Part shown: one piece after another, positions 46,078 to 63,796 of the stretch | Layout: each line of letters starts with the position of its first letter | Position numbering within the stretch: the first letter of the stretch is position 1 | From: Strobilurus pachycystidiatus | Taxonomy: Eukaryota > Basidiomycota > Agaricomycetes > Agaricales > Physalacriaceae | Length of the DNA: 64,000 nt | Assembly: GCA_019915135.1 (NCBI GenBank) | Contig: JAHLMK010000014.1 | Span: forward strand, 1,178,001-1,242,000 | Reading direction: 5' to 3' | Notes under the pieces: generated by a model | Told to the model about the DNA's origin: nothing | The model's input: the letters and a program-made list of their open reading frames with translations, nothing else | Database searches by the model: none | Translations under genes and position numbers: made by a program

Positions 46078-48850
46078 GGATAGATAGATAGATAGATATA
46101 TTTTAACGTGCATCTAGCCCCTAAAGAACACAGCACGGTCCGTACTACAATAAATACATGCTACGGTACCGAACCCAACTACCACCTAACTGATTTGAAG
46201 CAGCCCCCGTAGGGTAAGTCCTAACAATGCTCAGTGGTAGGGGGTGACATTTAGATAACCATACTGCCATACGGCGGTTCTCGCTAGTGCATTTCACGGG
46301 TGCATCAAAACCCTGCTGGAAAAAACCCCTCACAATCGCGGCGCATGAGAAAACCTCACTCGAGGACAAAGATCAAGGCCAGCGTTGGAGAGGGAAAAAT
46401 TCATTACAGGGAAAGCTACCGGGACGCAATACACTGGACGCAACCACCAGATGTATATCATTCACTGGTACCATTCCGGTACATACATAGGAACATCACG
46501 GACAAGTTCAGACACCTCGTAAACGAACGCTGCTATGTGCGGTATAAGATTGTCATATTCCATCACCATCAGCCACCAACCCAGCGGCGTATGCGCGCGA
46601 CCTATGAGCGCGGGGTATGCATTCCACACTGCTAACAGCAAGATGCTTCTTCGCTCGACAATCTCGGGGTGGGTGCATTCCATGATGACATGAAGCTCGT
46701 CTTCGACGTCGTCTCCGCACATGCGACAAAGCCTCCAGACTCTTGGTATTGGATCTCTCCATCCCGGTGGCTTTGGGAACCACTTTGCAGCCTCGACGCC
46801 TAGGGAATGAGATCCAGTTACCAGGCGAGTCAGCGCAATGCGATGGGCCGGTATACGAGTGAGCAAGTAAGATCGAAAGACAACTGGTGCACCGGACCAT
46901 TTCCCTTTCACTCTCTCCCTTCGTCCTACAGTCATCGGCAGGCGCTGTGCGCCTAACTGCCCAGTAACCCATGCGTCACTTGCCTCGCGTACTGCACCCA
47001 ACAACTGATTGACGCCGTCAACTGTCATGAGGCATTGCAACCAGTCATCAGATCCCTTGACTTGTAGTCTTTGGAGCGCATTGGCAATATCGCTCAACCA
47101 CCCGGGGGCACCATGCCGCCACAACGCCACAAAGGTGCGTAGACAGCGGACGACAAGTCTCGTGTCCGGGAGGTTGAGAAGCTTGCGGAGGAATTTGAGA
47201 GGCCTGAGAGCGCGGGAGAAGCGGAGTGGAACGATGCCAGTCTCAGAGTAGACAATGACAAGACGAGAACGGTCGTGGACATGTAGTATGCGGCGCAGGA
47301 AGTAAACCTCAACGGCCTCCAGTACGGCCAGTGACGCGGGTCGGACGTCAACGGCGAGCTCTGCCGCGTACGTGAGATGCGCCGCTATGCGGGCTTTGTA
47401 GATCACCAGTCCCAGAGCCGGAGGGAGATCACCGAAGTGTTTCTGCAGCCGTAATGCCACATTTGCCGTCTTACGAGCCGTTATGCCCTTCGCGTCGTAC
47501 ATTTTACGAAAGAGACCGCCACTGCGAGAGTGAAACAGAACTCCGAGATACTTGTGTTGGTCAGTCCATTCAATCACCTTGCCCTGGAGATACAATGTGG
47601 GGAGACTGTCTGGGATTGCTCCGAAAACCATCGCCTATGACAACCCATGAATTTGCGGGCTGCACCGACCCATAGGTAACACACCTTTGTCTTAGGTACA
47701 TTGACCATGAAGCCTTTTCGACTGGCATAGGACCCATACTCGTTGAGATGAGCAATAATACCATTTGGGCCGGACCACATCGCACCATCGTCAGCATGCA
47801 GAAGATGATTGATGACGAGATCGTCCATCCGAGTGTCCTCAGGATGAGCAGTAATCTGGAGGTCGCTGGAAACGAAGGTCCATAGGCCCGGTGAAGTTGT
47901 TTCCCCCGTGAGAATACCAATCGTAGTCGCAAACGGCGCAGACACTTTATCGCCAAGACGCACGACGTAACTCATACATCGGTACAACATTCTTAGCCAG
48001 TCAAAGATGGGCCCGCCGGCGCCTTTACGGTAGAGGCCCGACCAGAGTACCCCGTGATTCGTCCAAGGAAAGGCATTGGTGAGATCTGGAAAGACGACAT
48101 ATAGTGTCTTCTTTTCTGCCGCCGCCATCTGGATTGCACACTGAAGAATCCATGGCTTGTTCAGAGCGTCGTACCCTTTACGAAAGCCATTCTGTGTCTC
48201 GGGGATAATGCCGAGCCACTCCATCCATTCCTGTATGCGTATGTCGATGAGGAGAGTGAGCATCTTGAGTATGCACGACTCGAGGCCAATGAGACGATAA
48301 CTGGAAGCGACCTTGGCATCCTTCCCAACTTTGAGAATGCCGATGAGGACGGTAATAAGCCATAGTCGAGGTGCACCTCTCAGCTGGATGCAACGGTTGA
48401 AGAGGTGACAGAGTCGATCGTTGGGAATGCGAAGGAACAGGCCGTAGGTCGTACGATCCCACCCTGCCGCGCCCGAGAGATCCCGCCTCATTTTCTCTTT
48501 AACCGTCTCAATATCGGGCACTGTCCATGGACGGGAAAAGAACTGGTGAGGAGTAGTATCCTCCGTCTCCAGAGGAATGGCATCCGCCTCCATCATCACT
48601 CTTTCCAAAGCTTCGACGTCAAACTCGGCGGGCATCGTCGGCGGCATGCTGAGACGCTCTTCAAATTCATCGGCCATGATCTCGATTGTGATCTGTGGTT
48701 CGCACATCTTGGGGTCTGTTATGTCGCGTACCATGTCCCACATGCTTCCGTCGCCCTTTGACGCTGCACTGACAAAGTCACCCAGCATATCCCATCTCTC
48801 TGCTCTGGTCGCTGAGCGACCTCCATGAGATCCATTGAAAGAGGCGGGCA
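46078..48850 (-). mobile_element. non-LTR retrotransposon-type reverse transcriptase insertion
   Basis: Between the two halves of the F-box gene lies a reverse transcriptase with non-LTR character: no LTRs, an RT domain followed by a zf-RVT-like Cys/His motif (CRMCGDDVEDELHVIMEC), about 360 bases of 3' non-coding sequence, and a simple-sequence (TCTA)n tail at 46079-46103 (written on the minus strand), typical of LINE 3' ends. The 5' boundary is not sharp (about 48780-48890) and no target duplication could be recognised, so 5' truncation is likely. It also contains a spliceosomal-type intron (see the gene entry). Confidence 0.72.
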
Positions 48851-49640
48851 CTTCCTCCTCCTCTCCATCGAGCAAGACTCCGACTCGTGGACGCGGGATA
48901 GCAATGCGGGGAAGAGAAGTTGATGGGAACTCCCTGTTCAGCAGCCGCAGGAAGAGATATTTGCCACCGGAAACCAAGAGTGTATCTAGATGCAACTCTG
49001 GAACACGGGGGTAAAGCGACAGGTCAGAGTTGCTAGCACAGGTGATCATTCCGAGGGAAAGGTTCGTAATCTGGGGGCATTCGCTGAGTAACGCGAAGAG
49101 CTCGAATGCGGAGCCGAAGGGCATGTGCAAAGATATGAGTGTCGGACGGTGGAGGAGATTGATCAAACTGTCGCGGACGGCATTGGGGCAGTGCGTAATG
49201 AGTGGGTGCATGAGATAGTTGGTGAACATGAATTTCTCGACGCCGGTGAGCCCATTGATGATGAAGGGCAGGTAACGATACCAGACCTTGGAATCTCGGC
49301 TCTGGAGAAAGCACGAAGGCGCGTCTAGGAGGGCTTTGTAGCGCCAGTAATCTCCGTGGATCTTCAAGGTAAAGTTCCGGACGTATGACAGGAGGTGCGG
49401 TGCCTTCTTCACCGCCTTGTACAGCGGCCGGATATCGGGTCTGATGCGTACCGTCTCCCGACATGGCGGAATGCGCGACTTGGAGCGCACGTAGACGGGG
49501 ATTGTGAGATCCCTGAACAGTACCCGCTGCATCCGAGGTCTCCAGGATTGGCAGACCCGCGCGCAGGCATGCACAGTAGCTCGATCATCGTGAATATGTT
49601 CGAGGACGAGATCGAGAAGCTCGGTCGGAAGTTCCTGCAT
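46462..49640 (-). CDS. chimeric F-box :: reverse transcriptase gene
   Basis: ATG 49640 opens an F-box (MQELPTELLDLVLEHI...CARVCQSWRP) and LRR-type residues to about 260. The same frame then runs into reverse transcriptase: WDMVRDITDPK, PWTVPDIETVKEKMRRDLSGA, SYRLIGLESCILKMLTLLID, TQNGFRKGYDAL, VVFPDLTNAFPWTN, GILTGETTSP and the catalytic HADD (in place of YADD) in LLHADDGAMW. After VPKTK a 50-nt GT-AG intron (47684-47635) joins in phase to AMVFGAIPDSLP, and the protein ends after a zf-RVT-like motif at 46462, 1042 codons in all. HADD is, as far as I know, common to this Agaricomycete RT family. A spliceosomal intron inside an RT frame is unusual for a self-copying element. Whether the fusion is transcribed from the F-box promoter is unknown. 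Alternatively the two parts are an accidental in-frame join in a dead gene. Confidence 0.75.
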
Positions 49641-50529
49641 TGTCTGCAAAGACAAATAAGACAGAAGACAAAGGGCGTCCAATTAAGCGCACGTTTGCAC
49701 GTCTGGCCCGACAAGAAACGGGAAATTCTGGCAAAGACAGCTCATTAATAACGATCAGCGCTGGTGTTCAGGTCAAATAAGAAACGCACAACAAAAATTC
49801 CTTTGCCGTTCTACAGCATGCTCCAGCTTATAGCACCTCCTTGGGTCCTCACTGTTGCCTGTGGCACCAAGGACGGAGACACGTCGAGTTGGTAGTTGAT
49901 GGACAAGAGCAGACACGGTGAGCGTTATGTGAGAGGTACATATGTAGATGTCACGACCATTTCAAATATTTAGCTGCGCCACAAATGATGACTGCGAATG
50001 TAGATGGGCCGCGCAGCCGCTGATCCTCCTTCCTCAATTGGTACAAGTCCAATAAATTCTTAGTATTGCTTCTGTTTCATAGCATCTTCATTCCTTCTTC
50101 CCGTCCAGCTGAGATTCAATTCGAATTTGATGGCATTCACACTTCCCTAACACCACATCATGTTACAAAGATGAAAGAAACCTCGATAGAAATCACAGGT
50201 GGTACATAGAACGGTGCGCGATCATACGTTGATCATGTCTCTAGAAATGGCCAAATCCATCATCATTAGGACGAGTTCCTTACTCTGCCTCTCAGTCACA
50301 TTTCCATCTCTGCACCGTCGCAAGACCTCTTCAGACTCCAAATCAAGCGCTTTGAACCCTTGTCCAGAGATCTTCATCTTTGAAGCAAAGTCCTTCATCG
50401 CCTTGCACAGGTGCTTGTGGGGCCCAAGGTCCTTGCCCCACGCCTGCTTTTGGCATACCGACGAGCAATTTCGGAGTACCTACCAGCCGATCTGGCTGAC
50501 CTGGTGAGAGCTATTATTCTCGCTCTAAT
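49641..50529. other. intergenic, F-box promoter side and decayed P450 sequence
   Basis: The part next to 49641 is upstream of the F-box start. From about 50250 the sequence may be decayed P450 coding sequence leading into the fragment at 50530, but it is too degraded to align by eye. Confidence 0.4.
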
Positions 50530-51141: not shown

Positions 51142-51344
51142 TAGTAATAGTACACGATGTTTGGAAGGAAGTAAGTACAATGCTGTTGATAGAGATGTCG
51201 CATAAAACGGGGGGTAAGAGTAAATATGTCGCGTCGAGAAAGAAGAATACTAGTACAATGGTTTTTATAGAGATGTCGAAAGAAACGGGGGGGGGAAATC
51301 AATATGACATGGCGAGAAAGAAGAATATCCACGTAAATGAAGCA

Positions 51345-52849: not shown

Positions 52850-52949
52850 GACTCCATAGCTCAGTGGTTTAGAGCATGCGATTGCAGTCCTGGAAGTTGC
52901 CACTCTACAGTATATCGCAGGGTCCCGTGTTCAAATCACGGTGGGGTCT
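52850..52949 (+). tRNA. tRNA-Cys (anticodon GCA), with intron
   Basis: A full cloverleaf can be drawn: acceptor GACTCCA (52850-52856) with TGGGGTC (52942-52948, one G-U); D-stem GCTC/GAGC; anticodon stem TGCGA (52877-52881) with TCGCA (52915-52919); loop TTGCAG with anticodon GCA at 52884-52886; T-stem CCGTG/CACGG around TTCAAAT. A 26-nt intron (52888-52913) sits at the canonical position one base after the anticodon-adjacent purine (37/38), as expected for eukaryotic nuclear tRNA genes, and would be removed by the tRNA splicing endonuclease. The LTR retrotransposon begins 131 bases downstream. Confidence 0.96.
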
Positions 52950-53079
52950 TGAAGTTAACATTCGTGATGATCACCTTCTTTTTGCCACCATTGCCAAAAT
53001 TAGACAAATACATTTACTCAGTGGCGAGCAGGGAGCGGGAGCCCAGAGCCTGCTCAGTACTCAGTGCTATGTGCTTATT

Positions 53080-53511
53080 TGTTAAAGATATCGAGTAAAT
53101 CGGAAGATTTGTTAGTTCGGCAAGTCGATGCCGAAGTCGAGGGTTCGATCGTGTATCGAAGTAATGTTGAGATTTAAATGAAGAGCACGTTTCGTTACGT
53201 GCACGAGAATCAGACGGGAGAGATGAGACGAGAAATGAGAATGAATTGAGAAGGTAATCGAGATGAAACAGTATACGGAATATGTGTGTCTAGTTGTGGG
53301 CATGAAAATAGGTAAGTCATGGGGATGTTACACCCAAGCATTTATAGTACATAAGGCAGTGCAACCGAAGGCTGTACTGACGCGTAAGTGCTAAATATCG
53401 TAAGAGTCATGAAGCAAAGAATAAGAAAGAATTTGGAGGAATATTACGCGTTGAGCAGAAGGCCGGGATGCCGGCGGCAGTGCGTGTCTGAAGTACGCCT
53501 CATCCATAACA
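53080..53511 (-). repeat. 3' LTR of the Ty3/Gypsy element
   Basis: 432 bases, TG...CA ends within the 5-base inverted repeat TGTTA/TAACA. It appears identical to 63360-63791 over its whole length. Preceded on the plus strand by TTATT. Confidence 0.96.
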
Positions 53512-53539
53512 TAGCCCCCCCAGCGTAATATTACTCTGC

Positions 53540-55194
53540 TCAGGAACGCTCAAGGCCTCGAACAAAACGGCGCTTCAGGCGCGGAGCAGCTTCCGTGTCG
53601 CGATCGATCCTTCCGAAGACCGATCCTGGCTCGCGCAACGCGATAATGATCGTGTCGTCCGAGTCGTACGCTAGTAGGCTCTCGCAGGATGAAGAGGATA
53701 CCGACTGCAAGCTCGGCAATGAGCCGGAACTCGACGCGTGACCTGCTTGGTACGGGATGTTGTCGTCAAGGCGGCGCAGATAAGTCGGTTTGTCGATGAG
53801 TGACTCTTCAGAATAGTTGCTGTAAGCGTCGTCGGACAGGCGCCTACAGCGCATTCGCAAAGACGCCCCGAACCTTTCTTGATTGAATCTGTATACGCAG
53901 TCAGCACCATATCGATCTGCAGAGATCTTTTTAGGCACCTAAAAACTTCCTCCTCATCTGACGAGTATTCCGAATGAGCGTCGTCTCGTTCAGGCAAGGT
54001 ACCGAGTATCGGGCTCGGGGACTGGGCTAGAATATGCCCGATATCCAAGATGGACAATTGGAGACGGTCCGAAGAAGGGAGGTTGCGAGGATGGTAATAT
54101 AATGGGTCGTTTGCCGGGGAGGTCTGGACTGACCGAGCTGCGTTGCATCGCATGGACCAACTATCCTCGTCGCTGTCTGCATCGGGACTGTCAAGGCTGG
54201 AAGGCATGTCCTCGTCTCTGGAGAACAGCAATGATCGCTCGGGCTCATCGTCACTGATAGACAGGTGTTCCGTCCCGAGAACGACATGTTCGTAGCCCTC
54301 GGCTAGAGGAAGACGGTTGTAGATTGGCTCCCAGAATGGTGAGGCAGGGGAATTGGAAGGTGGTAAACAGACGATGCCCGTGGAAGGGGAAGGCGAAGGA
54401 GGCCGATTCTTAGCTCCTGAGAATATGGGAGTGCAAGTCTCGGTAGTATACCCTCCTAGCGCTAAGCGGAGGTATTCGACGGAAACACCCTGACGAGCGG
54501 CTTCAATATGCACGGCGTATGGTGATAGATACCACATGAAATCTATGCTCCGCCAAGCTTGGCTGTTCGGGAGTGTCCAGAGATGATAGAGGTCGCCGGC
54601 GATACTGTACTCCAGAAGGATAGCCAAACCGACAATCATACGGCGCATGGATTCACGAACGCGGTTCTCGTGCGCGAGCAAGGTGTCGAGTGAATCCCAA
54701 GTTAGCTCCTTTCATCGGTTGAGCGCCTTGTTTCGTTGAGAGTAAAGGCGTCTTACCAAGAATACCATCCGAATGCACAGTCCTGCAGCACAGAGCATGG
54801 CTTCGAAATCCTCCATCCTCATCGGTCCTTCGTTGGTATTGAGGTTAAACAGTAGGCGCGACATTTCGAGCAACGTTCCCACTGTCCAAGAACTTGTTAG
54901 TACAAGTAGACAAGAAGGAGTGTCGCGGAACTAACGCAAGAAACAGAAGGCTTGTAGTACGGCGATTCGGCGTCCGTAAACAATGAAGAAATTGCCGTCG
55001 CGCTCACGAATGTCCCCATCAGAAAGATCGTCGAGCGCCGGCTCAACAATAGTGGACATGACATTGATGAGGTTTGGAGAGGATATAGTCGAGAGTCGTC
55101 GGTACAAGGGGTCGTCAAACTCGAGGGGAGTGGGAGCAATAGAGCGTATATGTGCTGGGAAGTTTGGTATGTTGTAGGGGGTGAATGAAGCCAT
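53540..55194 (-). CDS. extra gene inside the LTR element, between pol and 3' LTR, unknown function
   Basis: Four exons (55194-54936, 54881-54757, 54705-53939, 53888-53540) with GT-AG introns of 54, 51 and 50 nt close exactly to 499 codons. The protein starts MASFTPYNIPNFPAHIRSIA and has three hydrophobic helical stretches (VLQAFCFLLGTLLEMSRLLF, AMLCAAGLCIRMVFLL, MIVGLAILLEYSIAGDLY). An ordered region follows (WRSIDFMWYLSPYAVHIEAA), then a long Ser/Pro/Asp-rich half with acidic clusters (SDDEPERS, DADSDEDSW, YSSDEEEVF) and a basic tail (RLKRRFVRGLERS). There is no signal peptide and no fusion-peptide or furin-like site, so it is not a classical envelope protein. It lies on the pol strand in the position that env occupies in retroviruses. 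Introns survive because full-length genomic RNA is packaged unspliced. It is not recognised as any known family; it could be a captured host gene or an accessory gene of this lineage. Confidence 0.78.
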
Positions 55195-55546
55195 GATTAG
55201 TACTGAAATTCGGTAGTCCTTAAATACCGAATCTCGGCTGAGTACGATTGTAGAGCCGTGTACGCGTAACCGCTCTGTCAAGCTGACGAGGTACGTCCTG
55301 TCCGTACAAGCAGCACTTTGTCAATTCAGATGGGCAACGCGCTTGGGATAAGACGCGTGTTCAGGGAAAGCTCCCGTGATGATCGACTCGATGCGGATGA
55401 GACCTCTTCATTAATTCCCCTTTTAGTCTGGACCTTGTCGTGACTGGTCTTGCATGTTAGTATAGATACCTATAAATCTAGAAATCGAAATAATGTCTTT
55501 TATGATTATCTGTTGGCCTGTGTGATTCCGGAAAAAGGGTGTGACT

Positions 55547-58500
55547 CTACTGAGCCGGCGCCGAGATTGATGGCATCATTGCAGACCCGGGAACAGAAGA
55601 ACGCGCTTTGATCCATTCTTCCAACACGTACGGTGCATTCTTCAACTCTTTCGCCGTTTTCCACTTGTCTTGACTCTCATCCTGATCCTTCCATCGAACG
55701 AGATACTTTCTCACCCGCTTGTGCTTTCCTCTGGATCGCGTCATCTTCTCGGCAACTATTTTTTCGATTTCCGTCTCCTTCTCGAAATCATCGAGATCTG
55801 ACGCGTCAAACTGTTTAGTGGGTCTTGAACCGAACTCCGGGGGTGAGACCTCGTATTTTTTGAGATGAAATATATTCAGAATCGGATGAATCTTGCTATC
55901 TGCCGGCATTCTAAGTTGGTAGGTGACCGGACTTAGCTTACGAACTATTTCGAACGGTCCGTCGTACTTTGGCAGCAACTTGACTCCTCGCCCCTTCTCT
56001 TTCTTCTTGAGAAGCTCCAAACTATGAGGATTCAGGACTACATGGTCCCCTTCCTTGAATTCAGTGAGCAATTTCCCTTTGTTGTATGATTTTTCTTGGA
56101 ATGCTTTGCTCACCGTTAGCGTGTCTTTAGCGCGGCTTCTTGCAGCCTCGAATTGCTCGACCATGTCGACGGCTAAGTCGTCCTCTCTTGCCATGTGGAT
56201 CTTGTCTGGTTTGCCTCCCGTGGTGACGAGATCGTCAATCGGTCGCGGAATGTACTCCGGGTCACTTAACAAAGACGCCTCAGTGACAGGATGAAATCCG
56301 AACAGCAGAAAGGAAGGTGAGTATCCTGTACTTGAATGCGGACTTGTGTTGTACGCTAAAGCAAGTTTACTCAGCCAAACATCCCAGTCATTGCGTTCGG
56401 GTCCCACGTACGCACGGAGCGTTATTTCAAGACCCTGATTCAGGATTTCGGTTTGTCCATCCGCTTGCGGGTGATGAGAAGTCGTTAAACTTCGTCGCAT
56501 ACCCATCAGTTCACAGACGTCTTTCCAAAAGGCGTTTCGCCATCGAGTGTCACGGTCCGTGATCACTTGCATGGGAATTCCGAAGGTGCATATTATCTTT
56601 CTGAAAAAGATTTCTGCTGTTTCCTGAGCCGTGATCTTTATTGAGCAGGGTATGAAGAAGGCGAATTTAGTAAGCTTGTCTACTATCACTAGAATGTTGT
56701 CAAACTTCCCTGATGATAGAAGCAGTTCGGGAATGAAGTCCATCGTAACTACTTCGAAAGGTTGAGTCGGGATCGGAATCGGCTGTAACAGTCCAATGGG
56801 TGCGTGCCGTCTGGGCTTGATCTTTTGACAAACATCACAGGTACTGACGAATTGTTTGAGATCCCGGGACATTCCAGGCCAGTAATAACTGGATGCCAGT
56901 CGGTTGTAACAGCGATGATACCCGGCGTGAGCACTTTCCATTGCTGAGTCATGTACGAGACTCATTACCTCCGTTCTCAGTGCTATTGGGACGCAGAGCC
57001 GGTGATTCCCGTTTGCGTCTTCGAAAAAGATCAGTCCCGAGTCGGCGTAGTGGTACTGAGGGAATCGAGGACTCGAATCGTAATCGGGGCTCTGTCTCGA
57101 GACTATAACGTCTGAAAAGTGAGGGTCTTCTTGGTAAGCGTCTCGCCATCGATTGACCTCCTCGGACATCATACTGATATCTATGGAGTAGCTCTGACTA
57201 CAACTAACTTCTAAAGTCACGTCTTCGAACGCTTCGACCTTCTCGGTGATGAGACAGTTGCTTTCTTCGAGTTGACTTAGAACATGTTGGTTGGCTACAG
57301 TGAGTAACTTTTCCTCAAATCGAGGCCCTAGTTCCTGATACATGTTTCTCAAAGCATCATCGTTGGCTCGCGTTAAGTCTACGGATAGTGTAGTATCCGA
57401 TTTCGGACCGTTTTCAGGAGGTACTCGACGGCGCAGCCTGGAGATGGGATCCACGTTCGAGTGTACCCTTCCGGCTCGATGCACTATGTGCATGTTTGGA
57501 AACGCTGCAAAAACGGTCCCCCAAGTCAGAAGTCGCCGATTCACGTTCTGGAACGTTCGGCTCCAGGTTAAGGCAGCATGGTCAGTGATTGCTAAGATCG
57601 TTCCACCCTCTATGAAAGGCTGAAATTTGATCAAAGCCTCCTTGAGGGCTAGAGCTTCTCGCTCTGTAGGTGAGTAATTTCGCTCTGGTGATTTCAATAC
57701 TCTTGACCAATAACTAACAACGCGTTCGACGAATACTTCGGTCTCCTCGAAGGTATCATGCCAAGTTGTAACTGCAGGTACGTCGTTCCATTCCTTAGAC
57801 AGGGTGGTGACTAACTGAGGAACTTCCTCACCGCTTTCAAACGCTTTCTTCAATCGATCGTACATTCTAGTACCCCGGAGATCCTTGATCAGAATCGGTT
57901 GTACTTGCTGCAGGATTCCGGCAAGGCCATAGTCGCAAGCGTCTGTATATACTCGATACGGTAAGTCTCGCATTGCGTACGCCCTCACCGGAGCGTTGGA
58001 AAGTACTTGTTTGCAGAGCTCGAAAGCCTCGTCATGCAGAGGTAACCATTCCCAATCTCTATCTTTCTTCAAAAGCTGAAAAAGGGGTTGTGCGATCCAT
58101 GCGTAAAACGGTACGTACGAGGAAAAGTACACCATCATTCCTAGGAATGTATGAAGCTCTTTCGTGTTCGTCGGTGTCTCGAGCATCAGAATTGCTTCCA
58201 CTTTCTCTCGGTGAGTCGACATACCTAGTCTCGAAACTTTCTGACCGAGAAGTAGTAATGACTGGTATGCGAAATGACATTTGGTCGGAGACAACGTTAT
58301 GCCGGATGTTCGGATTGCGGATAGTACTTTATCAAGATGCTCGAGATGTTCGTCAAAGTTTAATGAGAATACGACTATGTCATCGATATATACCAGTGCG
58401 AATATCCATAAGAACGGAGCAAGAACCTCTTGCATAACTCTCTGGAATACGCTAGGTCCGTTACGATAACCGAATGGCATCCGAGTGAAGCGCCACAAGC

Positions 58501-61500
58501 CTCGATGGCATCGAAAGCTGAGAGGGTCTCGAGAATTGTCATGCATAGTCAGCTGCGTAAACCCTGAGAGTGCATCCAGAGTTGTGAGCCACTGTGCCCC
58601 GCTCAACGCTTGCGTTATATCTTCCTGCTTTGGAAGCGGGAATTCATCGGCAATCACTGAACTATTCAGTCGACGATAATCGACGACCATACGGGGCTTA
58701 CCATTACGGTAGACTATGAATGTCGGAGCGGCCCACGGACTCGTTGACGGCTCAATGACTCCGAGCTGGATCCAAGAATCCATCTGCTTGTCAATGACTT
58801 CGCGGTTAGCCGGTGAAGCGGGAAAGGGAGGGAGTGATACTGGTACCGTACCAGGTTTCAACTTGATCTCCACCTTAGCCTCATAGTTGCCTAGTCGTCC
58901 GTCAAGTCCGAAAGCATCACGGTTTTTCTCTAATACTTTCACTAGTCGGGCTCTCTGATCTTCATCCAAGTCCGGAGATATCTTCACTGACTTGATGAAT
59001 TCGTCAGACGAAGTTGGTTCGGGCGCCGTTTCCGCGGTCTTGGGACCTCCCTCCACTGGTGCAGTAGCCGCGGGGTCATCAGGTTCAGTGGCGTTACGTT
59101 GAGCTTTCGAAGATATCTCACTCGAACTTTGAACCACCGCCGATCGGGATGTCGGTCCGATATCCGCATCTTTGCTTCCTTCTAATAGCTTCTGGATGAA
59201 TACTACGTGTCGCTGTTGCAAAAGACGTGTGGAATCGTCTCGAGAAGGTCTATCGAGTGCGTTCCTTGGATTAAAGGCCTTGGCGACCACTTGACCCTCC
59301 GCTATGACTATAGCCCTATCGGAGAAGTTCGAAATGTGCAGAACGCAGTTCTCGCGACTGATCAACGAGTCTGGTGAGCCCCAAAATCCATTTTCATTAC
59401 TATCTTGGCTCATGGTTCTTTCGACGAACAGACTATCACTTTTGACGGGAAAGTATGCGATTACGGGTACCTTTACGCAACTCTTGGGTCCTATCACGGT
59501 GCGCCTTTCTGCTCGCACTTCACCTCTGGATTGGCGAATCTTTGCTCTCCGTTTCAGCTTCTGAGACTTTCTATGCGATGCCAGCGCTCTATTTCGGTCT
59601 GACTTACTGTTCACGACACATGTTCGGACATTGAACGTCTCGCCGTTTTCCATAGTACGAGGATTGTTTAATGAATTCTCGACTTCCGCTTCCCTTCCTG
59701 TGTCTGAGAAATTGATAAAGGTATGCCCTTCTCTCCTTATGATGGATAAAGCGTACTGATCTGCGAAGTCATTGCCCAAAATGAAAGGTGAACTCATTCC
59801 TTTTACTATGTACGCGTCGACGTTCAACAGCACTGGTCCTCGGTTTGTGTCAAAGAACAGGTCAATATTGACGAATTCTGCGATGGTTGAGGTTCCCGTA
59901 ACTTGTACTAGACTGATTCGCTGCCCTTGCTTTGCCTTGGGCTTAGAGGTCAGACTTTTCCACGTCTTTTCCGAGATCAGTGTGATGTCTGATCCAGAAT
60001 CAACAATGACAGGAATTATGTCCGCCTCAATACCGTTAATGCTAGCATTAGTCTGGGTAGCCTTACTTCCCAGGAACGTGCATCCTGGTGGCCTGGCTAT
60101 TAGCTTCTTCAGCTCCAGGAGCGGTCGCGCTGGATGAGCGGCAGAGTCCGCCCTCACTCGATAGCTGGTGCGTTCGATTTCCTTGGCCAGGCGTCGTCGT
60201 GATCTTCTGTTTAACGCTGGTTTCTCGTAGAATGCTGTGCATGCTCTGGCTGTCCGCGTAGCGAAGGACGAAGAAGGAAAACTATCCGCACTCCTGCCCC
60301 CCGTGCTTCTGAGACCTTCGTTGAGGTACGTGTCCTCTTCACCGCTTTCAGACTCGCTGACGTCCTCATAGGCGTCGATTTCGTCCAGAATATCGCAGTA
60401 TAAGTCCTCATACTCATCTAAAGCCTCTCGCAAATCGCTGTCAGTTTGTGCAAGGCGAGTACGAGCGGTTCTCATAGCCTTATTTGCATACTTACATTCT
60501 CTGTCCCAGTGCATTTCACTGCCACAGTGTCTACATGCACGCGCGCCTCTTGCTTTTGGGGTCAGTCCACGCGTTGTTACGTTTGAATCATCCTTAGGAA
60601 AGCTCGGAGGTGGCAACTTGGCAGACGCACCGACTAGATGAACTCGCGCTGAAGGTTTGTCGCTAGCTCGTTCACGAAAGAACCGTTCTTCAAAGCGATT
60701 CCGAGTAGGTAAGCATTCAATCAAGGCTTCTTCATGAAATCTGATTGCTCGCTGAAGATCTACTACGCTCTGGTATAGATGTGATGTAAGTATCATGTTC
60801 CACTGACTTGGTACGCCGTTCATGATTTCAGCTATCATTTCAGAATCATCAAAGTTATACGCCGTACTCAATAGGTCGGATTTGCGAATGAAGTATTCAC
60901 TGGGTGACTCTCGTGCATGTCCTACTTCACGAAATTTTGAGTCCGTTGCTCGTTTTCGCAGCTTCTCCCACCATTTCCGCGTCATGAAATATCCGGTGAT
61001 TGCGACACGAAGAGTAGTACTCCAATTCGCCTCAATTGTTCTGCGATGTTCAAACGGAAGAGACCAGTACCATTCACCAGCGGCTCCGGTGAGTCTTTTG
61101 GGTACCACTTTTCCTAATTGAATGTTCATTCGCTCACTCATACTGCTCAAATCATCCATTTTTCGTAACCAATGGATAATGGTGTCAGTATCACCGTCCC
61201 AGGTAGGAACATCGCTCAGTTTCAACTTGAAATCAAAGTGTGGTTCTAAGGCGGGTCTGTTTAGATCAGCAGCATTGCCGGCGCCTCCTGGAGGGCCATT
61301 TCCGCCGCCGCCGCCTCCTGGAGGACCACCACCAGGAGGACCGTGACCGCCGCCTCCGCCTCCTGGACCAAAGCCGCTGCCGCCTGGAGGACCACCTGCC
61401 GGAGGGTATCCGCTTCCGCCACCCCTTCCGGGACCGTTTCCGCCCCAAGGAGGACCACCATTTCCACCTGAAGGACCCGAAGGACCTCCTCCGCCCGGAT

Positions 61501-63286
61501 ATCCAGGGAATCCGCCGCTAGGGTTAGGATTACCGTGACCGCCGGGTTGCTTGAATGTGTTCGAAGACGGTCGCTGTGACTGTGTTGCCCCTGGTAGGTG
61601 AGGTACCTGACTAGGGTTGAACTGAGGCTGTACTGATGAAGTATAGGGCGGAGCTTGCGTCGCCGCCTGGCTTATCGGCGGGCGCGTTCCCGAAGTAGCT
61701 GATTGATTGTTAGCAGGCACCGCACCTGCCTGGTTTTGCATACGAGCTGTCGCTTGAGCAAATCTAATCGAGCTAGCGTCCGAGGGTGTCGGACTGACAT
61801 TTGACTCACGAACCGGTAATGAATCGGATAAGGACGCGTCAGCGCCTCGAGGCGCGTCAGATGGCGCGGTCTTCTCATTGCGACTAAGATCTTGCCCGAA
61901 AGGGTTGACCATTCTACTAGTATGAGTTCCCATCATAGGAGCTGTTTGTCCAGATGTGGGCAATACAAAGGATACCCCCGGAACGTCTGTACCGACGTAC
62001 TGAGAAGAGTCAGTGGGCTTACTAGCCTCAAATGGACCTTTACCCGCGATATTTCCGCCGCGCGTCACATAACTTGTAGGATGAAATCTTGCTGTAATAG
62101 AGTCTTCCTCCGTACTGCTAGGCTGAACACGCGATGGATCGTTTCTAAAAGGTGGTACATTTGGGACTTCAGTTTCCTTCCTCTGAGTTAGATATTCTGA
62201 GATTGATGTGACTCCTTGTCCCTGTGTAGGACGAGTTATCGGCATCACCGTAGATATCGAGCCACGGTTAGAATTCAGTCCGGAAGTTGCCGATGCTTGA
62301 TACTGAAGAGCGCGTTCTAGAAGGACGCGTGTAGTATGATCCGACTGTCCTCTGCGAGGTGCGCCGGTTTGCCAGTCGTGATATTCTCCCAGAGTTACTA
62401 GCAAGTCTTCTGTCTGAGCAATCAAACCTATCACATAGACCTCGTAGTCGTGCGCTGTCAACCACGCGTCAGCATCGTTTCTCGGACCCCATTCCGGCAG
62501 TGTGATAGTGAGTTTACCATACGTTCTAAGTGATCCCGATGCAATGTCGACTCTTTGTGATAATTGTTGAAAGAATCGGAGATACAATCTGGACTTAGGT
62601 CGGTACCCATGGATCACACTGAACGGACCCACAAGAGCGGTAGGATGATATATCAAATCTGTCAGCATACTCAGCTCGTTGTGGTAAGTCATATTTATGT
62701 CCGGGAGTTCTAATGTCTTCAGAGAAGGGAAATGTATGTCGCTGTTCTCGTTCAAGAGAAGTTCCAATGCGGCTATCCTACGCTCTGTCCATTTAGAGAG
62801 TTCGCTCTCAAAATGATCAGGCTTACCACTGTACTGCTCCCCCAACAAGCGTCGGATTGCCGCTTTGGGCTGAAAGTGAACAAGTGGCGGAATCTGCATC
62901 TCCGAGATCCGAAGGTCCTGCCAATCAGCTCGTTCCCTCAAGTCAAATGCCCCTTCCAGATATTCGGAAAGGTCCGGCGCATCGTCTAAATTGCTCGTTC
63001 TGAGTTCATCAAAGTCGCCGGACATGTCAATCCTCACAAAACGGTCACCGCGCGCTTTACCTCGCACGTCCTTATTGACGAAGTCGTCGTCTTTCACAGG
63101 CGGCAAATCCGATTGATTGGCTGCAGTATTTGAAGCTACATTTTCGGGTTGCTTACCGCTAACAGACGGACTTGCTAATCCGCCCGGAAGCGCTGGTGAA
63201 GGCTGTCTGGGACGCGCGTCGGAGCCTTGCCCTTCCGATGCCTTCGGAGGCACGATGCCTGAGTCTTGCGAAGGCTGATCTGCCAT
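55547..63286 (-). CDS. Ty3/Gypsy Gag-Pol polyprotein with chromodomain
   Basis: One uninterrupted frame of 2579 codons from ATG 63286. Approximate order: a disordered N-terminal region; a Gly/Pro-rich collagen-like stretch (about 582-674); Gag core (PTWDGDTDTIIHWLRKMDDL, to about 855); zinc knuckle CRHCGSEMHWDREC (about 922); aspartic protease VIVDSGSDITLIS (about 1097); reverse transcriptase with MVVDYRRLN, DALSGFTQL and the catalytic YIDD (about 1630); RNase H VYTDACDYGLAG (about 1780); integrase HHCC motif HDSAMESAHAGYHRC...CDVC (2110-2152) and DDE residues in VTMDF, VITDRD and GQTEIL; and a C-terminal chromodomain (KYLVRWKDQDES, about 2507-2562). The chromodomain places it among chromoviruses, whose integrase is steered to heterochromatin marks. 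All catalytic motifs are intact, so the element looks autonomous. Confidence 0.96.
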   Translation of the reverse strand: MADQPSQDSGIVPPKASEGQGSDARPRQPSPALPGGLASPSVSGKQPENVASNTAANQSDLPPVKDDDFVNKDVRGKARGDRFVRIDMSGDFDELRTSNLDDAPDLSEYLEGAFDLRERADWQDLRISEMQIPPLVHFQPKAAIRRLLGEQYSGKPDHFESELSKWTERRIAALELLLNENSDIHFPSLKTLELPDINMTYHNELSMLTDLIYHPTALVGPFSVIHGYRPKSRLYLRFFQQLSQRVDIASGSLRTYGKLTITLPEWGPRNDADAWLTAHDYEVYVIGLIAQTEDLLVTLGEYHDWQTGAPRRGQSDHTTRVLLERALQYQASATSGLNSNRGSISTVMPITRPTQGQGVTSISEYLTQRKETEVPNVPPFRNDPSRVQPSSTEEDSITARFHPTSYVTRGGNIAGKGPFEASKPTDSSQYVGTDVPGVSFVLPTSGQTAPMMGTHTSRMVNPFGQDLSRNEKTAPSDAPRGADASLSDSLPVRESNVSPTPSDASSIRFAQATARMQNQAGAVPANNQSATSGTRPPISQAATQAPPYTSSVQPQFNPSQVPHLPGATQSQRPSSNTFKQPGGHGNPNPSGGFPGYPGGGGPSGPSGGNGGPPWGGNGPGRGGGSGYPPAGGPPGGSGFGPGGGGGGHGPPGGGPPGGGGGGNGPPGGAGNAADLNRPALEPHFDFKLKLSDVPTWDGDTDTIIHWLRKMDDLSSMSERMNIQLGKVVPKRLTGAAGEWYWSLPFEHRRTIEANWSTTLRVAITGYFMTRKWWEKLRKRATDSKFREVGHARESPSEYFIRKSDLLSTAYNFDDSEMIAEIMNGVPSQWNMILTSHLYQSVVDLQRAIRFHEEALIECLPTRNRFEERFFRERASDKPSARVHLVGASAKLPPPSFPKDDSNVTTRGLTPKARGARACRHCGSEMHWDRECKYANKAMRTARTRLAQTDSDLREALDEYEDLYCDILDEIDAYEDVSESESGEEDTYLNEGLRSTGGRSADSFPSSSFATRTARACTAFYEKPALNRRSRRRLAKEIERTSYRVRADSAAHPARPLLELKKLIARPPGCTFLGSKATQTNASINGIEADIIPVIVDSGSDITLISEKTWKSLTSKPKAKQGQRISLVQVTGTSTIAEFVNIDLFFDTNRGPVLLNVDAYIVKGMSSPFILGNDFADQYALSIIRREGHTFINFSDTGREAEVENSLNNPRTMENGETFNVRTCVVNSKSDRNRALASHRKSQKLKRRAKIRQSRGEVRAERRTVIGPKSCVKVPVIAYFPVKSDSLFVERTMSQDSNENGFWGSPDSLISRENCVLHISNFSDRAIVIAEGQVVAKAFNPRNALDRPSRDDSTRLLQQRHVVFIQKLLEGSKDADIGPTSRSAVVQSSSEISSKAQRNATEPDDPAATAPVEGGPKTAETAPEPTSSDEFIKSVKISPDLDEDQRARLVKVLEKNRDAFGLDGRLGNYEAKVEIKLKPGTVPVSLPPFPASPANREVIDKQMDSWIQLGVIEPSTSPWAAPTFIVYRNGKPRMVVDYRRLNSSVIADEFPLPKQEDITQALSGAQWLTTLDALSGFTQLTMHDNSRDPLSFRCHRGLWRFTRMPFGYRNGPSVFQRVMQEVLAPFLWIFALVYIDDIVVFSLNFDEHLEHLDKVLSAIRTSGITLSPTKCHFAYQSLLLLGQKVSRLGMSTHREKVEAILMLETPTNTKELHTFLGMMVYFSSYVPFYAWIAQPLFQLLKKDRDWEWLPLHDEAFELCKQVLSNAPVRAYAMRDLPYRVYTDACDYGLAGILQQVQPILIKDLRGTRMYDRLKKAFESGEEVPQLVTTLSKEWNDVPAVTTWHDTFEETEVFVERVVSYWSRVLKSPERNYSPTEREALALKEALIKFQPFIEGGTILAITDHAALTWSRTFQNVNRRLLTWGTVFAAFPNMHIVHRAGRVHSNVDPISRLRRRVPPENGPKSDTTLSVDLTRANDDALRNMYQELGPRFEEKLLTVANQHVLSQLEESNCLITEKVEAFEDVTLEVSCSQSYSIDISMMSEEVNRWRDAYQEDPHFSDVIVSRQSPDYDSSPRFPQYHYADSGLIFFEDANGNHRLCVPIALRTEVMSLVHDSAMESAHAGYHRCYNRLASSYYWPGMSRDLKQFVSTCDVCQKIKPRRHAPIGLLQPIPIPTQPFEVVTMDFIPELLLSSGKFDNILVIVDKLTKFAFFIPCSIKITAQETAEIFFRKIICTFGIPMQVITDRDTRWRNAFWKDVCELMGMRRSLTTSHHPQADGQTEILNQGLEITLRAYVGPERNDWDVWLSKLALAYNTSPHSSTGYSPSFLLFGFHPVTEASLLSDPEYIPRPIDDLVTTGGKPDKIHMAREDDLAVDMVEQFEAARSRAKDTLTVSKAFQEKSYNKGKLLTEFKEGDHVVLNPHSLELLKKKEKGRGVKLLPKYDGPFEIVRKLSPVTYQLRMPADSKIHPILNIFHLKKYEVSPPEFGSRPTKQFDASDLDDFEKETEIEKIVAEKMTRSRGKHKRVRKYLVRWKDQDESQDKWKTAKELKNAPYVLEEWIKARSSVPGSAMMPSISAPAQ

Positions 63287-63341
63287 GGTCGTATGCAAAT
63301 AGGGTGTAGAGAATAGTGTAATTGGCTTCGAACACGATGAA

Positions 63342-63358
63342 GTCTTATGTGTCCACCA
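63342..63358 (-). other. candidate primer-binding site
   Basis: Immediately inside the 5' LTR, after one C, the minus strand reads TGGTGGACACATAAGAC. It begins TGG, as expected for complementarity to a tRNA 3' CCA end. I cannot name the primer tRNA by eye. Some chromoviruses use self-priming instead, so the call is tentative. Confidence 0.4.
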
Positions 63359-63359
63359 G

Positions 63360-63791
63360 TGTTAAAGATATCGAGTAAATCGGAAGATTTGTTAGTTCGG
63401 CAAGTCGATGCCGAAGTCGAGGGTTCGATCGTGTATCGAAGTAATGTTGAGATTTAAATGAAGAGCACGTTTCGTTACGTGCACGAGAATCAGACGGGAG
63501 AGATGAGACGAGAAATGAGAATGAATTGAGAAGGTAATCGAGATGAAACAGTATACGGAATATGTGTGTCTAGTTGTGGGCATGAAAATAGGTAAGTCAT
63601 GGGGATGTTACACCCAAGCATTTATAGTACATAAGGCAGTGCAACCGAAGGCTGTACTGACGCGTAAGTGCTAAATATCGTAAGAGTCATGAAGCAAAGA
63701 ATAAGAAAGAATTTGGAGGAATATTACGCGTTGAGCAGAAGGCCGGGATGCCGGCGGCAGTGCGTGTCTGAAGTACGCCTCATCCATAACA
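63360..63791 (-). repeat. 5' LTR of the Ty3/Gypsy element
   Basis: Apparently identical to 53080-53511. In the element's orientation this is the promoter-bearing LTR. It is followed on the plus strand by the target duplication TTATT at 63792-63796. Confidence 0.96.
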
Positions 63792-63796
63792 TTATT

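Follow-up and report, generated by a model that had tools for sequence, protein, structure and literature searches.

The window, a 64,000-nt stretch of contig JAHLMK010000014.1 from Strobilurus pachycystidiatus, contains a complete Ty3/Gypsy chromovirus on its minus strand (53080–63791; 10,712 bp), and a third gene lies between the chromodomain of its pol and its 3' LTR (Table 1). The initial annotation had described a 10.7-kb element with seemingly identical LTRs and a perfect TTATT duplication, and the description held: the two LTRs differ at no position, and the element is flanked by a 5-bp duplication that reads AATAA in the orientation of the element (TTATT on the plus strand). Within the single gag-pol frame, Pfam recognized an aspartyl protease, a reverse transcriptase, an RNase H, the zinc-binding and core domains of an integrase (the core scoring 29.0 against a curated cut-off of 32.6), SH3_Tf2-1, and a chromodomain; in the 2604-residue reading, the protease occupies residues 1106–1199, the reverse transcriptase 1553–1708, the RNase H 1879–1954, and the integrase 2124–2298. 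The PR-RT-RH-IN order is that expected of a Ty3/Gypsy chromovirus, and with the TG...CA LTRs, the short duplication and the C-terminal chromodomain, it agrees with a chromovirus in each of the features compared. DNA searches of the 51.8-Mb genome found two copies of the LTR, both belonging to this element, and the nearest other pol stretches were 66–73% identical at the DNA level (these counts being lower bounds). Because the LTRs are identical and no further copy of the LTR was found, the element is young and, as far as seen, single.

Table 1. Features of the chromovirus and its third gene, by position in the window.
Feature	Positions	Strand	Remarks
Left target-site duplication, as the element is read (AATAA)	63792..63796		Flanks 5' LTR
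5' LTR	63360..63791	-	432 bp; 0 mismatches to 3' LTR; TG...CA ends
Putative primer-binding stretch CTGGTGGACACATAA	63345..63359	-	Directly after 5' LTR; similar in C4, C5, C43
gag-pol, single open frame	55547..63286	-	First ATG (63286) to stop; from ORF listing and Pfam
Chromodomain, C-terminus of integrase	55607..55771	-	PF00385, E 1e-6, residues 2531-2585
TATA-like box TATTTAAG, proposed promoter of third gene	55219..55226	-	TWTAAR core starts 30 nt before ATG
Exon 1	54936..55194	-	259 nt, ends in phase 1
Intron 1	54882..54935	-	54 nt, GTTAGT...CAG, with TACTAAC as branch-like site; place and phase conserved in all seven copies
Exon 2	54757..54881	-	125 nt, a length shared by all six copies in which both neighbouring introns are present
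Intron 2	54709..54756	-	48 nt, GTAAGA...AAG, phase 0; same position in 6 of 7 copies
Exon 3	53939..54708	-	770 nt; end of helical core and acidic, Ser-rich tail
Intron 3	53889..53938	-	50 nt, GTGCCT...CAG, phase 2; private to window copy
Exon 4 and stop codon	53540..53888	-	Conserved C-terminal motifs SLPSL, SDD-TIII, FGR-DRD; basic end
G-rich polypurine tract GGGGGGGCTA	53512..53521	-	Adjoins 3' LTR; 18 nt past third-gene stop
3' LTR	53080..53511	-	432 bp; TG...CA ends
Target-site duplication, right copy (AATAA on element strand)	53075..53079		Flanks 3' LTR

The third gene is read on the same strand as pol, from an ATG at 55194 to a stop at 53540, 28 nt before the 3' LTR. Its four exons are joined in frame across three GT-AG introns (54, 48 and 50 nt), as had been annotated; the product is 500 aa long, not 499 aa. 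The weak points of the model are intron 2 of the window copy, which has an AAG acceptor and lacks a CTNAY branch-like site, and the GTGCCT donor of intron 3; such a branch-like site is missing from 4 of the 14 introns modelled. Intron 3 is supported by the conserved tail motifs that are read downstream of it.

We examined ten loci of the window pol lineage, namely the seven in which the third gene is recognizable by sequence (C14, which is the window copy, C1, C2, C4, C5, C10a and C13) and C10b, C43 and C35. A search for other copies that carry the gene had been proposed at the outset; seven elements have it in the same place and on the same strand; at all six of the other loci pol lies upstream on that strand, 65–79% identical to the window pol over the aligned stretches. 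At C10b and C43, an ORF region occupies the third-gene position and is weakly similar (single-pair hhalign E 0.041 and 0.0037), and no third gene was seen behind the pol fragment C35. LTR pairs, 99.5–100% identical, are present in five of the ten loci (C14, C4, C5, C10b and C43; for C4, C43 and C10b the BLAST boundaries were adjusted by 1–4 bases so as to coincide with TG...CA), and a G-rich tract precedes the 3' LTR in C4, C5, C43 and C10b as well. A perfect 5-bp duplication flanks each of the five elements with LTR pairs (AATAA, ACTTG, GCGGG, TCGCC and GCCAC), with the proviso that two of them (C10b and C43) have only the weakly similar third gene. As to the further question whether homologues are always flanked by LTRs, C14, C4 and C5 have LTR pairs, and at C1, C2, C10a and C13, as at C35, no LTR pair was found in the flanking DNA examined. 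C10a is interrupted by another element, and the contig ends close to C2; C1 and C13 have broken third genes, and the part of C2 behind the core is likewise broken. A decayed fragment of a C10b-like third gene was also seen at C9:1164387–1165086, where there was no pol match.

Intron 1 lies in phase 1 in seven of seven copies and intron 2 in phase 0 in six of seven, the phases in C1 being taken from the frame at the exon ends because its exon 1 is frameshifted. Copies that have diverged thus share the place and phase of introns 1 and 2, and exon 2 is a constant 125 nt, which is more than chance would give. That the extra gene belongs to the element and has survived mobilization with its introns, as the initial annotation proposed, is supported by the retention of introns 1 and 2 across the seven loci. 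The exception is C2, from which intron 2 is precisely absent and in which reading continues without gap or insertion; this is what an RNA that had been spliced and once reverse transcribed would give. C5 apparently has one private intron of its own. In C1, intron 2 has grown to 517 nt (L025:5341–5857); it is AT-rich and contains GAATA-like repeats, as though a repeat had inserted there.

Selection on the third gene is best read from C4 and C10a, which over 458 codons differ by 136 synonymous and 51 nonsynonymous changes (dN/dS 0.079). The core (first 224 codons) accounts for 78 synonymous and 8 nonsynonymous of these (dN/dS 0.019) and the tail for 58 and 43 (dN/dS 0.173); the integrase of the same pair gives 0.035. 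The introns of the pair are 74% identical, and exons 1 and 2 are 90 and 88% identical. In this one well-measurable pair, the differences thus indicate strong purifying selection, while the values for the window copy against C4 and C10a (0.29 and 0.39) are unreliable because dS exceeds 2. Identities in the integrase and in the third-gene core were correlated among the seven copies (r = 0.874; 18 of 5040 permutations), a correlation that depends on three closely related copies (C4, C10a and C13); when each lineage was represented by one copy, it was not significant (r = 0.258; 32 of 120). The integrase of C2 is nearest to that of C4 (0.80) and its third gene nearest to that of C14 (0.50), and third genes may possibly have been exchanged between elements by recombination. 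By all indications in these sequences, the third gene is real, owned by the element and under selection, and is not a passenger.

The initial annotation could place the protein in no family, and the database searches agree. The 500-aa protein had no match among 5.8 billion proteins, an alignment of five third proteins had none there or among viral contigs, and Pfam, PHROGs and PDB sequences likewise returned nothing, Env and fusion proteins included; in the protein database and viral contigs searched, no relative was found outside the organism's own genome. This search was limited by split exons, a length filter and fast evolution, but its emptiness is not for want of related elements, because 402 related pol proteins, at E values up to 1e-30 (the best 70% identical), are present in the same database, with relatives in Mycena, Trametes and Rhizoctonia among the 120 of 402 matches listed. 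Structure models made from exon pieces were mainly helical, with a quality (mean pLDDT 58 and 54) too low to support a fold search. The tail is acidic and Ser-rich, and short motifs are kept across the six tails compared, in copies only about 30% identical: YYHP or YLHP in six of six, an FxHxA-like motif in all except the window copy, an S-M/L-P-S-L-like motif, and SDD or SND ahead of a largely hydrophobic stretch; most tails also have FGR with DRD, and most have a basic end. The acidic-hydrophobic, SDD-VVIA-like stretches are, we assume, reminiscent of SUMO-interacting motifs.

Fungal chromoviruses are usually regarded as gag-pol only. Taken as a whole, the observations are best explained if the third gene is an accessory gene that a clade of these elements carries as its own, an explanation that we regard as probable. 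The introns kept through reverse transcription and the core dN/dS of 0.02 (C4/C10a) would mean that the elements need more than gag-pol, and introns kept in the third gene would mean that part of the element RNA must be spared splicing. The origin of complex, retrovirus-like regulation thereby becomes testable in fungi. Caution in annotation is also advisable, as third genes of this kind could be entered as hypothetical proteins of the host.

The nearest tested parallel, judged by description, is CERV of Cer1, a Ty3/Gypsy element of Caenorhabditis elegans. CERV is encoded by a large ORF between pol and the 3' LTR and made from a spliced multi-exon mRNA; it is reported to be a protein of about 500 aa that is not Env, is highly divergent, has no obvious homology outside nematodes, and works on the nuclear export of unspliced element RNA (PMC10309623). 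The window gene resembles it in being a multi-exon gene with introns, in its location, and in a product of similar length. However, exons 1–3 of CERV are in the gag frame, whereas the window gene starts at a conserved ATG of its own, takes no exons from gag and probably has a separate promoter. Of the two, CERV is the one with a tested function.

Additional ORFs of fungal Gypsy elements have already been published, and introns, selection and promoters go unmentioned in the Figure 3 legend that presents them, which is the description compared here (PMC2864245). In barley Bagy2, a sense additional ORF lies between pol and the 3' LTR, and a splicing event is reported (PMC7264820); the window gene is likewise sense and likewise placed, but plant ORFs of this type are termed env-like partly for their transmembrane domains, and such domains are not consistently seen in the window family. 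The ORF3 genes of bdelloid rotifers are described as separate transcriptional units with spliced messages, and there, as here, related LTR families have differing third genes (PMC5408684); the rotifer genes are of env, esterase, exonuclease, coiled-coil or TM types, whereas the families here match nothing searched. Boty of Botrytis is a fungal LTR element with an additional gene, brtn (PMC8365987, PMC7264820), which is antisense, while the window gene is sense and, by our model, spliced. Conserved introns or an own promoter for a fungal chromovirus third gene were not found in print, in a search that covered few subscription journals. What is new here is that the introns are conserved, that the gene is under selection and that it has a probable promoter; additional fungal Gypsy ORFs were already known.

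As to what the native gene does, a role outside RNA export and splicing, namely in silencing, chromatin targeting or particle assembly, is a serious contender that falls somewhat short of being probable. The acidic tail and the short conserved motifs would suit it, and Pfam recognized no RNA-binding domain in the third protein; nothing direct speaks against it, but the retained introns make a role on the RNA side at least as natural. With its helical core, its acidic, Ser-rich tail and, in most copies, its basic end, the third protein might tentatively be likened to CERV as a soluble regulator and not an envelope, which would act on the element's own RNA or on host factors that limit the element; this is our working model, although we regard the assignment as doubtful. 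A still more speculative proposal, and in our judgment an improbable one, is control of the kind seen in complex retroviruses, in which a separate promoter would drive a spliced regulatory gene whose product would protect intron-bearing genomic RNA from splicing and allow it into the cytoplasm, with sister lineages using an unrelated third ORF instead.

A TWTAAR box (in the forms TATTTAAG, TATAAAAG and TTTAAG) starts 30–33 nt before the ATG in all seven copies. The chance of such a hit 25–45 nt before the ATG in shuffled sequence is 0.01–0.03 per copy, and with one copy taken per lineage, the boxes of five of five fall within a 4-nt window, which 0 of 1000 shuffles equalled; the pattern was picked only once the sequences had been inspected, and three of the seven copies (C4, C10a and C13) are closely related. 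C10b lacks the box, so seven of the eight copies inspected have one. The distance of 30–33 nt is unusually short and leaves scarcely any 5' leader. We read the box as a promoter, and the third gene is probably transcribed from it.

The initial annotation had instead envisaged a spliced subgenomic mRNA, as with env or accessory genes. The LTR-promoter transcript would then be spliced from a donor in the leader or gag to an acceptor before the third-gene ATG. Some features of the window copy would fit this: strict splice donors occur within 460 nt of the 5' LTR in C14, which also has GTAAGC some 130 nt inside gag and TTTCAG 8 nt before the ATG; YAG sites lie 80–82 nt before the ATG in five of seven copies (C14, C4, C10a, C13 and C1); and Cer1 CERV uses a spliced mRNA route (PMC10309623). 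However, the other three leaders (C4, C5 and C43) have no strict donor within the same 460 nt and no donor is common to the four, while the sharing of acceptors does not exceed that in shuffles, as the three of five lineages whose YAG sites fall within a 3-nt window were equalled by 346 of 1000 shuffles, as compared with 0 of 1000 for the TATA-like box. Reading the box itself as an AAG acceptor fits poorly, since none of the seven copies has a CTNAY site in the 45 nt upstream, though 4 of the 14 modelled introns also lack one. The LTR-subgenomic route therefore appears less likely than an own promoter, and we consider it unlikely in itself. Our favored account, which we think likely as a joint proposition, is that the TATA promoter just before the ATG would drive the third gene, whose transcript would then be spliced, that genomic RNA driven by the LTR would be copied unspliced, and that occasional copying of spliced RNA would have led to the clean loss of intron 2 in C2.

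The position of the gene also invites comparison with env, and hydropathy maxima of 1.47–1.84 together with a hydrophobic N-terminal stretch in the C5 protein could be taken to suggest an envelope or fusion protein with which the element exits the cell. The maxima are borderline, however, and fall at residues 69, 149, 149 and 29 in C14, C4, C10a and C5, so that on hydropathy the four proteins have no peak in common, and the peaks hold charged residues; the N-terminus is not signal-like in three of the four (C14, C4 and C10a). The evidence leans against a signal peptide with a transmembrane anchor, and with an acidic, Ser-rich tail and no match in Pfam or the PDB, the env-like role is not supported and an envelope is highly improbable.

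Whether the gene has homologues only as a single host gene was raised at the outset, and the genome speaks against this. A whole-genome search with the window protein at E values up to 10 gave 19 matches, of which 2 are in the window, 16 in the six other places and 1 elsewhere, so that 18 of 19 lie within third-gene loci; with the C4 protein, 20 of 20 lie inside the seven loci, and no host copy was found in the own-genome search. The outlying match (C4:1387229; E 0.0016) has two stops, covers the acidic tail only and has no pol in the surrounding 10 kb, and it looks like a chance hit. A host gene captured once by the window copy, with no function for the element, might be suspected because one copy of the gene at the DNA level and one LTR pair were found in the genome and because the introns are host-like, but six other elements have homologues that share its introns, and this, together with purifying selection and the want of a host copy, refutes it within the organism's own genome, and we give it practically no credence.

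A sister lineage is represented in this genome by eleven chromovirus loci at a greater distance, their pol being 36–63% identical by stretch. A third ORF of about 1000 aa from one sister element was matched behind pol in 8 of the 11 (C9, C4, C6, C17, C2, C15, C9b and C14b), down to 22% identity, in frames of 659–1119 aa with an internal stop in three of eight; it had no Pfam match and no detectable similarity to the window gene. In C9 and C4b (L045:1–3363 and L046; C9:1473501 on and C4:2412600 down), pol ends in TTA TGA CTG and is followed in the same frame by a third ORF of about 1000 codons that is conserved between both, which suggests stop-codon readthrough at a single TGA, a prediction for these two loci; the third ORF of C4b holds further stops. 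The same-frame arrangement was not found in C6, C17b, C9b, C2b, C15, C14b and C51, all seven of which close within about 110 codons after the pol stop. A search with pol in viral and prokaryote contigs found nothing, and P0055, a metagenomic pol relative, has a 353-residue in-frame tail behind the chromodomain region; the window-type third protein, the sister-type third ORF and this tail have no mutual similarity.

Near the element in the window, Rfam placed a tRNA gene at 52850–52949 on the plus strand (52.5 bits; 100 nt, probably with an intron), which ends 130 bp from the 3' LTR and was not listed by an ARAGORN run. Insertion beside tRNA genes as a rule was not supported, as one tRNA was found in the 12 loci scanned around six other elements, about 2.2 kb from an LTR. 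On the minus strand at 47574–49682, a 702-aa open frame combines an N-terminus resembling an F-box (Pfam E 0.001, which falls short of the curated cut-off) with a reverse transcriptase that is presumably LINE-type; its residues 1–260 are 97% identical to C14:1134117–1134896 and its residues 304–688 are 71% identical to C3:2558612, and the frame has the look of a recent chimera. At 51174–51327 there are two 76-nt units in tandem that are 79% identical.
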